Part shown: positions 41,369 through 55,385 of the stretch, piece by piece
Position numbering within the stretch: the first letter of the stretch is position 1
How the letters are laid out: each line of letters opens with the position of its first letter
NCBI RefSeq assembly: GCF_013201035.1
Contig: NZ_CP053707.1
Coordinates: 3,720,001 to 3,784,000, forward strand
Direction: 5' to 3'
Source of the DNA: Arthrobacter sp. NEB 688
GTDB taxonomy: Bacteria > Actinomycetota > Actinomycetes > Actinomycetales > Dermatophilaceae
Length of the DNA stretch: 64,000 nucleotides
Notes under the pieces: model-generated
What the model saw: only the letters and a program-made list of their open reading frames with translations
Databases searched by the model: none
What the model was told of the DNA's origin: nothing
Made by a program: the position numbers and the translations under genes

Positions 41369-41419
41369 CCCACCCGCCCCCTCGCGAACGTGCGGGACCC
41401 ACGGCAAGCGGCGTGCCCG

Positions 41420-41502
41420 AACTGACGAATGTGTCGATTGATGCACACCCCCCGACCCCCGGACCGTGCACAAACTGACGAAAGTGTCGATTGATGCACA
41501 CC
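41420..41502 (+). repeat. Two direct 30-bp repeats, left flank of DUF559 gene
   Basis: Copies at 41420-41449 and 41473-41502 differ at one base and are 53 bp apart. Both contain AAWGTGTCGATYGRTGCAC. The same core, in inverted orientation, occurs four times right of the DUF559 gene. The rest of 41369-41573 shows no coding potential. Confidence 0.85.
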
Positions 41503-41573
41503 GCTGCCGTCGGGCGAGCGATCCGGCCTGTGGACGACCGTTTTCGCGCTCCGCCGGATGACAGGCTCGGCCG

Positions 41574-42500
41574 ATGGACGCCGATGACCCCCGGAGCCCG
41601 TTCCTCGCGACGGACGCCGCCGCCATGGGCATCTCACGACGAGCTCTCCACGGTGGGCGCTATCGGCCGGTCGTGCGCGCGGTGTTCATCGACGCGCGGG
41701 TCCCGGACACCGTGGTCGTCCGCTCCCGAGCGGCCCTCCTCGTCGCGCCCGACGGGGCTGTCCTGAGCCACTGGACGGCCGCGCGACTCTGGGGTGGACG
41801 CGTGCCGGAGAACGACTCCGTCCACGTGTCGTTCTCACGGCGCGTCCGCTGGCGGCTGCGCGGCGTCAAGCCCCACTGCTACATCCATCGACTGGCCACC
41901 GCCCGACGCCACGGCCTTCCCGTGACGACACCCGCCGCCACGTTCTGCCTCCTCGCTGCGTTCCTGGGGCTGGTCGACCTCGTGGCGCTCGGGGACAGCC
42001 TCGTCCGCCGCGGGCACATCACGCCGCATGATCTCTGCGCCTCCGCCGAAGGATGGGTGGGGCAGCACCGCGCCGAGGCCATCGAGGCCGCCCGCCTCGT
42101 CCGTGACGGGGTGGACTCGTCGCCCGAGACGACGTTGCGGCTGCTCATGGTGCTCTCGGGGCTGCCGGAGCCTCGGATCAACGTCACGGTGTACCGCGAC
42201 GACGGCTCGATCCGCTACCGCATCGAGCTCGCGTACGAGGAGCAGCGGGCCGCGATCGAGTACGACGGGCGCTGGCACGAGGAGCCGGCCCAGCGGGTGC
42301 GGGACTCGTCCCGGCGTGAGGGCCTGGCCGCGCAGGAACGCTGGACGTTCGTCGTCGTCACCCCGGACGAGCTGTTCTCCGCTACCGAGGACCTCGTCGA
42401 CCGGCTGCACTCCGAGCTGAGAGCCCTCGGCGTCCCCGTCCCCCCACGGCCTGACGACGCCTGGCGCCAGTACTTCCGCGTCGCGCGGATCGCCGCGTGA
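41574..42500 (+). CDS. AbiEi-like/DUF559 nuclease-fold protein
   Basis: A 308-residue protein. The N-terminal part (AAAMGISRRALHGGRYRPVVRAVFID, then AVLSHWTAARLWG) resembles the AbiEi antitoxin/winged-helix domain found before DUF559 in actinobacteria. The C-terminal ~90 residues (YRIELAYEEQRAAIEYDGRWH, then RVRDSSRREGLAAQERWTFVVVTPDELF) fit DUF559, a Vsr/PD-(D/E)xK-like nuclease fold with candidate acidic residues Glu and Asp in IEYDG. Substrates of this family are unknown. It is flanked by repeat arrays in opposite orientations and interrupts an otherwise conserved carboxylase block, which suggests insertion. Confidence 0.75.
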   Translation: MDADDPRSPFLATDAAAMGISRRALHGGRYRPVVRAVFIDARVPDTVVVRSRAALLVAPDGAVLSHWTAARLWGGRVPENDSVHVSFSRRVRWRLRGVKPHCYIHRLATARRHGLPVTTPAATFCLLAAFLGLVDLVALGDSLVRRGHITPHDLCASAEGWVGQHRAEAIEAARLVRDGVDSSPETTLRLLMVLSGLPEPRINVTVYRDDGSIRYRIELAYEEQRAAIEYDGRWHEEPAQRVRDSSRREGLAAQERWTFVVVTPDELFSATEDLVDRLHSELRALGVPVPPRPDDAWRQYFRVARIAA

Positions 42501-42520
42501 CCGCTGCCGGGTGGGTCGCC

Positions 42521-42710
42521 GTGCACCGATCGACACTTTCGACGATTTCTGCCCACCCGGGAGGAGGCGGGCGTGCACCGATCGACACTTTCGACGATTG
42601 ATGCACGCCCAGGGCGAGGCGGGCGTGCACCAATCGACACTTTCGACGATTTCTGCCCACCCGGGAGGAGGCGGGCGTGCACCGATCGACACTTTCGACG
42701 ATTGATGCAC
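42521..42710 (-). repeat. Four tandem 52-bp repeats, right flank of DUF559 gene
   Basis: Units begin at 42521, 42573, 42625 and 42677, exactly 52 bp apart. All start GTGCAC followed by YRATCGACACTTTCGACGAT. Units 2 and 4 end in TGATGCAC, making a near-palindrome with the start; units 1 and 3 end in TTCTGCCCAC. The array is thus two 104-bp super-units. The core is inverted relative to the copies at 41420-41502. The gap 42711-42750 shows nothing else. Confidence 0.9.
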
Positions 42711-54866: not shown

Positions 54867-54940
54867 GGGGCACATCGTGCCACCGCGCGCCCGGTCCCCG
54901 CGGCAGGCCTCGCCCCGCCCGATCCGGACCACGGGACCCC

Positions 54941-55364
54941 CGCACGTGCGCGGTCATCGATGCCAGGTCCGGCCCGAAGTCACGAAAAGCCCGCACGTGC
55001 CGGGTCATCGCGCCCGGGCTCCATCCCGGACCACGGACAGCCCGCACGTGCGGGGTCATTGCTGCCCGGTCCGGCCCGAGGTCACGAAAAGCCCGCACGT
55101 ACGCGGTCATTGCTGCCGGGTCCGGCCCGTGGTCACGAAAAGCCCGCACGTGCGGGGTCATCGCTGCCCGGTCCGGCCCGGAGTCACGAAAGGCCCGCAC
55201 GTGCCGGGTTGTCGCGCCCGGCCACCATCCCCGACCACGGAAAGCCCGCACGTGCGTGCTTATCGCTGCCGGGTCCGGCCCGGGCTCGCGGAAAGCCCGC
55301 ACGTTCGGGGTTATCGCGCCCGGCCACCGTCCCGGAGTCACGAAGAGCCCGCACGTGCGGGGTC
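54941..55364. repeat. Nine-unit tandem array, 51-bp period, CACGTG palindromes
   Basis: GCACGT occurs at 54942, 54993, 55044, 55095, 55146, 55197, 55248, 55299 and 55351: seven intervals of 51 and one of 52. The best units centre on the 14-bp palindrome CCCGCACGTGCGGG. Two interior versions alternate: A (with GTCCGGCCCG) and B (with CGCGCCCGG); order A B A A A B A B, then a partial unit. It fills most of the 519-bp gap between the aldolase stop and the kynA start. Flanks 54867-54940 and 55365-55385 show nothing else. Confidence 0.92.
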
Positions 55365-55385
55365 GCCGCGGGTGCCGGCTCGGCG

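Follow-up and report, generated by a model that had tools for sequence, protein, structure and literature searches.

Introduction

Chromosomal genes flanked by their own palindromic repeat have been described as REPtrons: according to PMC3733652 and PMC8049555, RAYT genes are flanked by repetitive extragenic palindromes (REPs), several families may coexist in a genome, each with its own gene, and the spread is mainly intergenic, with no known carriage on plasmids. In these respects they resemble the locus analysed here, a gene for a nuclease-like protein enclosed by two arrays of a short palindrome in a 64,000-nucleotide stretch of Arthrobacter sp. NEB 688 (contig NZ_CP053707.1, positions 3,720,001 to 3,784,000 of the forward strand), which we call the window and number from its first letter. 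They differ from it in other respects. The protein here is predicted to be an AbiEi-EDxHD/Vsr-type nuclease, and the Y1 transposase, the defining feature of REPtrons, is absent from the six Pfam families listed for 83 homologues (the Arthrobacter genome itself was not searched for it); the units stand in arrays with a period of mostly 51–52 bp, and the motif differs for most homologues; and the repeat unit in the window (family 1) ends in GTGCA/TGCAC, without a GTAG or CGTC tag. Most homologues of the gene are likewise bracketed, usually by different repeats, which points to an undescribed kind of gene-repeat pair.

Four further systems share parts of the protein. The EDxHD homing endonuclease I-Bth0305I (PDB 3r3p) has the EDxHD/Vsr-like catalytic fold (PMC3943268), whereas the gene here is free-standing, carries another DNA-binding part, shows no intron or intein, and is flanked by a motif that occurs in many copies; sites without the nuclease gene, a point that bears on this comparison, exist in related genomes. 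AbiEi antitoxins (6y8q; Rv2827c, 1zel) share the predicted AbiEi fold, but here it is fused to a nuclease, and the repeats also lie 3′ of the gene and are dispersed; no AbiEii nucleotidyltransferase toxin partner was found among the eight neighbouring proteins scanned. Vsr endonuclease (1cw0, 1vsr) shares the Vsr fold, to which an AbiEi module is added here in a gene bracketed by repeats; Pfam scans of the same eight neighbours found no DNA methylase (5-methylcytosine), the partner of Vsr. Finally, the MTES_1575 nuclease family, the best-fitting Pfam family of the window protein, is named for one of the giant HEPN-helicase proteins that are held to be defence systems; the protein here has two domains in 308 amino acids (aa), without HEPN, helicase, or transglutaminase, and the accessible sections of the paper on the giant proteins mention no flanking repeats (PMC3710099). 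A search of the open-access full-text literature, a scope outside which most subscription papers fall, yielded nothing on repeats around such genes.

Results

Repeats bracketing the nuclease gene and its homologues

The repeat core AAWGTGTCGATYGRTGCAC has six exact copies in the window, two on the plus strand to the left of a single open reading frame (ORF) and four on the minus strand to its right (Table 1), where 0.02 would be expected at three or fewer mismatches; no shuffle gave six. The 308-aa frame is the only ORF between the arrays. This is the arrangement described in the original prediction, made from the sequence of the window, except that the two left cores begin 8 bp further right than stated there. 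The three spacings of the right array are 52 bp, as predicted, and the left pair is 53 bp apart. The full family-1 unit is a 34-bp imperfect palindrome, GTGCA-NN-(8 bp)-AAAG-(8 bp)-NN-TGCAC, whose first 8-bp block is AATCG(A/T)CG and variants (alignment A1: 37 of 40 oriented units, three excluded). When the six units were folded with their surroundings as single-stranded DNA (ssDNA), one was strong and the remaining five had z scores of −2.0 to 0.2. Vsr-like recognition of G-T mispairs in such hairpins was considered and dropped, as a pair table of 71 units was mixed at the NN positions and did not single out such mispairs.

Homologues were collected from 13 genome contigs, from those family genomes that gave a match at E ≤ 1e-20 (75 of 119; 30 loci used), and from 60 further stretches, which are part of the matches listed. 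From a set of 109 loci, we left out L037 and L042 (no tblastn match at 1e-3; L037, a paralogue in the window's own genome, therefore stands outside the counts of this test), four loci with identical proteins, and the short L055, giving 102, and then L116, with its short downstream flank, giving 101. The 350 bp upstream were compared with the 350 bp downstream by their best local match, and a repeat common to both flanks (score ≥36) was present at 82 of the 101 loci. Flanks taken from different loci reached this score in 5 of 600 pairings. Of 130 neighbouring ORFs on 58 of the same stretches (crude calls, ≥450 nt, with third-position GC content, GC3, >0.85), one did so. The co-occurrence of arrays with genes of this family, raised in the original prediction, is thereby borne out, and it is on this test that the claim of pairing depends. 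The shared matches are inverted at 40 loci, direct at 40, and equal at 2 (n = 82), and some of the motifs are non-palindromic; arrays that face each other are thus a property of the window and not a general rule, and we dropped the idea that this orientation is important.

In two weak cases (G092 and G111; loci L204 and L205), read by eye, related arrays enclose both the nuclease gene and the MOSC gene, as they stand between the MOSC gene and an epsilon-subunit ORF and also past the nuclease gene; the gene order in G017 (L206) is the same. At L116, L119, L130, L137, and L142, draft contigs stop ∼80–550 bp from the nuclease gene, as is expected if the flanks are repeated in the genome.

Dispersed repeat families and their cognate genes

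With up to three mismatches, the 16-base core of family 1 gave 172 matches in the 4.08-Mb genome against 24 for the reversed pattern, and a covariance model (E ≤ 0.001) recovered 57 copies in this genome, in at least 23 clusters, and 14 in G083, with no match under strict filters in the remaining 117 of the 119 family genomes. Units are most often 52 bp apart; spacings of 42, 62–64, and 84 bp occur a few times and those of 102, 127, and 169 bp once each. All 57 model matches are more than 10 kb away from the five relatives of the window protein encoded in the same genome (at 4.01, 1.95, 1.65, 3.48, and 0.29 Mb), whose flanks, read by eye, carry other repeats. We initially took scattered repeats and paralogues elsewhere to mean that there was no link, a reading that was overturned by the flanks of the homologues: the core is scattered, which the original prediction had counted against itself if no tie to DUF559 genes existed, yet it is linked to the gene. 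Among the paralogues in this genome, L033, L035, L036, and L037 have a palindrome or repeat of their own in the flanks (L033, L035, and L036 were scored).

At 4.01 Mb, the paralogue stands between three copies of AAAGCCCGCACGTGCGGGGTCATCG (≤3 mismatches) on one side and two on the other, and this second family has 70 copies in the genome (control 0), in 22 clusters with a spacing of mostly 51 bp. One genome thus holds two unrelated families, each paired with a different member of the protein family. Another motif, CATCGACCAATAGGTCAC (≤2 mismatches), was counted 78 times in G106, 106 times in G103, and 29 times in G118, where it lies beside orthologues that are 58–60% identical to the window protein; elsewhere, there are nine copies in G065 and at most five in every other genome, and the reversed control gave seven over all 119. 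Judged by these sequence counts, the two families searched in this way, family 1 and CATCGACCAATAGGTCAC, are abundant only in genomes with the putative cognate gene. The four families tested are dispersed across the genome, and their copies apart from the gene are a further likeness to REPtrons, from which the G023 family (see Discussion) is excepted.

Of 53 clusters placed by crude gene calls, 46 fall in intergenic gaps (16 convergent, 18 codirectional, and 12 divergent) and seven within an open frame. Such placement, and the fact that one of the six window units folds well, is what ordinary terminator-like or REP-like elements lying beside the gene by chance would look like; that explanation is nevertheless extremely improbable in view of the flank test (82/101 against 1/130 for neighbouring ORFs) and of two families that each go with a different paralogue. 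Two family-1 units at positions ∼1483–1600 of L003 (857 kb in the genome) lie within a long Glu-Pro-rich open frame that is possibly coding.

Gene-free sites, turnover, and local clustering

The locus was compared in 30 related genomes, and what we say of gene-free sites holds among the matches listed. In at least two of these genomes (G044 and G079), 7 bp, without gene or repeats, lie between the MOSC gene and the epsilon-subunit ORF, which are separated by 1382 bp in the window, so that gene plus arrays is absent as one unit. In G001 (L200), there is also no gene, and the 52-bp gap is mostly a long, perfect-looking hairpin of sequence unlike family 1. The original prediction had taken the block to be compact in relatives and had envisaged empty sites, both of which are found in G044 and G079; orthologous loci that keep the repeats and lack the gene, the outcome that it had named against itself, are not seen in G044, G079, or G001. 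Relatives without gene and arrays imply either that loss of the element is possible or that it was never acquired.

Array sites differ between the window genome and G083, whose AccD is 98% identical. The three-copy array at 410 kb is gone in G083, the 544-kb array has one copy against five, the 687-kb array one against three, and the site of the family-2 array of the window five against nine. The 410-kb site in G083 holds other sequence, and these are therefore not clean insertions.

Local clustering was seen with TTTAGCGGGCTAAA (≤1 mismatch), which has 134, 19, 40, and 19 copies in G119, G120, G121, and G124 (control 0) and is absent from the two Aeromicrobium genomes searched. All 40 copies in G121, a genome of 10.9 Mb, lie at 76–267 kb of one contig, on which the nuclease gene is at 212–213 kb (median distance to the gene 23.6 kb), and all 19 in G124 lie at 211–325 kb of one contig around a central nuclease gene at 267.6–268.5 kb (median 20.3 kb). 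Repeats that flank the gene and in these two genomes are confined to its neighbourhood, together with the resemblance to the antitoxin fold of a toxin-antitoxin system, would also suit a DNA antidote, in which the repeats tether and neutralise a harmful nuclease, loss of the array is punished, and multiplication near the gene raises protection. We consider this quite improbable, as AbiEi is the antitoxin and not the toxin, harm is not directly evidenced, and related genomes exist without gene and arrays.

Motif change with protein divergence

In a comparison of 5050 locus pairs (flank score ≥40), the flank motifs lose similarity as the proteins diverge. Non-syntenic pairs share a motif in 7 of 4464 cases below 45% protein identity, in 2 of 411 at 45–60%, and in 4 of 7 at 60–70%; for syntenic pairs, the figures are 37 of 81 at 45–60% and 47 of 53 at ≥60%. 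The non-syntenic pairs that share a motif include L118 and L122, paralogues in G068 that are 68% identical. An earlier wording, that the motif follows the protein and not the place, was weakened when a recount gave much higher sharing in syntenic pairs.

Protein family, predicted fold, and array period

The best Pfam match of the window protein is MTES_1575 (PF18741; E 6e-6, 26.7 bits, under the 38.2-bit cut-off), and DUF559 is weaker (E 0.024, also under the cut-off); across the 83 homologues (E ≤ 0.01), MTES_1575 is found in 75 and DUF559 in 48. The predicted model joins an AbiEi-like DNA-binding part to an EDxHD/Vsr-type nuclease part, the latter matching Vsr-type nucleases. Active-site-like residues rank among the most conserved of the protein in the homologue alignment, their single-residue equivalence being taken from the fold and not from a residue-by-residue alignment. 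PADLOC gave AbiEi models for all three homologues submitted (best E 1e-7) and weak PDC-S37 and mREase_II matches for one. In collections of 72,556 plasmid and 50,697 phage records, four plasmid records and one phage record contain relatives (E ≤ 1e-5), and the protein is thus rare outside chromosomes in these collections. The L168 homologue has a stop codon inside its frame, so decayed copies exist.

A significant tandem array is present in 105 of 202 flanks. The threshold was reached by none of 202 single-base shuffles and, among neighbouring ORFs, by 10 of 238 flanks. Of the 105 flanks with an array, 62 (41 loci) have a period of 51 or 52 bp and 75 one of 50–55 bp, counts that are non-independent in that there are two flanks per locus and related loci; the period is mostly 51–52 bp irrespective of the motif. 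AbiEi is reported to bind a pair of 23-bp inverted repeats separated by 3 bp, which together span 49 bp (PMC7319586), and by analogy one array unit would be about the size of an AbiEi footprint. A 10.5-bp phase common to all spacings was tested and rejected: it is not the best-fitting period because 51–52 bp dominates, and there is a hint of it only in the minor family-1 spacings, with 102, 127, and 169 bp not fitting.

These features bear on whether the arrays could be operators of a repressor or nucleoid-type regulator, which would autoregulate its own gene and, through the dispersed copies, control or insulate others, its nuclease fold being kept for another task and its immobile repeats turning over by tandem duplication and selection. 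AbiEi relatives do autoregulate via inverted-repeat binding (PMC7319586), the period of ∼51–52 bp and the minor family-1 spacings of 42, 62–64, and 84 bp suit one helix face, and the G023 motif is confined to its own gene. Such a regulon is unlikely, however, with arrays also present 3′ of the gene, array sites that vary between sister species at 98% AccD identity, copy numbers that run from 5 to >100 across homologues, no promoter bias in the orientation of the 53 clusters, and active-site residues among the most conserved of the protein.

A conserved element upstream of the gene

TGTGGA is found in the upstream region (200 bp) of 93 of 102 homologues versus 5 of 263 neighbouring ORFs, and TGTGGAYRA in that of 66 of 102 versus 0 of 263 (these control ORFs include overlapping ones, no overlap filter being applied). 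In 71 of the 102 homologues, TGTGGA starts 44–50 bp before the start codon, with the consensus CCTGTGGATAAC. Downstream of it, ∼10 bp before the start codon, is a weak CAcgcT, the position of which would fit a leaderless transcript. A CCTGTGGATAAC-like element ∼48 bp before the start codon is common to proteins with unrelated repeats. TGTGGAYRA is called a putative DnaA box here, after the actinobacterial consensus, and TGTGGATAA and TGTGGACAA, complements of DnaA-box sequences, are candidate DnaA sites.

The presence of this DnaA-box-like element in most upstream regions, and the uneven placement of the family-1 clusters on the chromosome (Rayleigh p ∼ 0.004), could be read as chromosome organisation or replication control, with centromere-like or fork-related units, a nuclease that resolves structures, and timing by DnaA. 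At least two unrelated families in one genome, the lack of either family searched in most of the 119 genomes, and a second family that is not clearly uneven (p ∼ 0.1) make this highly improbable, and we claim no tie to the replication origin. The idea that the repeats are centred on the replication origin was dropped: no DnaA-box cluster was found in the first 6 kb of G000, G103, G068, G023, and G069 or in the last 6 kb of G000, and position 0 is therefore not known as the origin. The interval of 1.49–2.89 Mb, a third of the chromosome, contains none of the 57 family-1 model matches.

Neighbouring genes and feature coordinates

The eight neighbouring proteins scanned by Pfam include carboxyl transferase and ACC epsilon on the left of the gene; to its right follow MOSC, DUF885, TetR, Na/H exchanger, and Maf, and the eighth is a biotin ligase, in agreement with the accE-to-maf block in which the original prediction had placed the gene.

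Table 1. Positions of the nuclease gene, its arrays, and associated features in the window
Feature	Position	Strand	Remarks
Left array, unit 1, family 1	41413..41446	+	core match (from 41428), 34-bp palindrome
Left array, unit 2	41466..41499	+	core from 41481; 53 bp from unit 1
Conserved DnaA-box-like element, CCTGTGGACGAC	41527..41538	+	TGTGGA starts 45 bp before the start codon
CAGGCT, possible −10 of a leaderless promoter	41562..41567	+	candidate; weak family consensus CAcgcT
Nuclease gene, 308 aa	41574..42500	+	predicted: residues 2-177 AbiEi-antitoxin-like, 180-288 EDxHD/Vsr-type (ORF, Pfam, model)
Right array, unit 1	42521..42554	-	core from 42521; inverted relative to left
Right array, unit 2	42573..42606	-	core from 42573; predicted ssDNA hairpin, −15 kcal/mol, z −5.5, sole strong one of six
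Right array, unit 3	42625..42658	-	core match (from 42625), 34-bp palindrome
Right array, unit 4	42677..42710	-	core match (from 42677), 34-bp palindrome
Dispersed family-2 array, CCCGCACGTGCGGG core	54924..55370	+	51-bp period; cognate to the 4.01-Mb DUF559-type paralogue, not to the window gene

Discussion

The gene and its arrays probably constitute a cognate nuclease-repeat element. The self-addressed, REP/RAYT-like logic put forward in the original prediction is strongly supported as an association, by the flank test, by the co-variation of motif and protein, and by abundance in the genomes with the cognate gene; that the arrays face each other is not supported as a general feature.

Several observations weigh against this reading or narrow it. 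Among the 101 loci, 12 have neither a shared repeat nor a tandem array at the thresholds used, besides seven with a one-sided tandem array only. Dispersal is not universal: the G023 motif has five copies, all at the gene, plus one 2-mismatch match elsewhere. We saw neither a target-site duplication nor a clean insertion junction, the 410-kb site being occupied by other sequence in the sister species. Local clustering is not general either, in that the listed TTTAGCGGGCTAAA copies of G119 are spread over many contigs and the median distance to the gene in the Arthrobacter genome is 859 kb for family 1 and 727 kb for family 2, against 1019 kb for a uniform distribution. At 45–60% identity, motif sharing in 37/81 syntenic but 2/411 non-syntenic pairs means that much of it is explained by joint descent of the gene with its flanks, or by coding sequence that the flanks share; seven non-syntenic pairs, two of them non-independent, suggest that the motif is tied to the protein rather than to its location. 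The AbiEi structural match has a root-mean-square deviation of 5.4 Å, and likeness of a predicted fold alone shows no function. Binding, nuclease action at the unit, spread by such action, and DnaA timing are steps that we infer.

With these reservations, a cognate nuclease-repeat element might work as follows. The AbiEi part would bind the unit, probably as a pair on the inverted repeat, covering about 50 bp, or one unit, and binding would both repress the nuclease gene and dock the nuclease. Cutting or nicking at or near the units, followed by repair, could multiply them into arrays and seed new sites, a process that may begin close to the gene, to judge by two Pseudonocardiaceae genomes, and in time extend over the whole genome. 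Expression may be tied to replication, as suggested by the conserved DnaA-box-like promoter element. On this view, the nuclease would carry the repeats of this genome as non-autonomous passengers, in the way that RAYTs carry REPs. More tentatively, and with rather less confidence than we place in the element itself, the locus could represent a class of repeat element, driven by a nuclease, that has gone unrecognised in Actinobacteria and in which a replication-timed AbiEi-EDxHD nuclease keeps a private palindromic unit that is copied locally and then chromosome-wide and re-invented as the proteins diverge, with several families per genome.

If true, this would provide an owner gene for many dispersed intergenic palindromes of high-GC bacteria and would turn a nuclease family of unknown function into a testable system, with dozens of natural protein-motif pairs for studying how AbiEi-type domains read DNA. 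Spread in cis could be tested directly in the two genomes with local clusters around the gene. It would also mean that repeats can spread by a route that does not involve a transposase, with a possible tie between replication timing and repeat dynamics.
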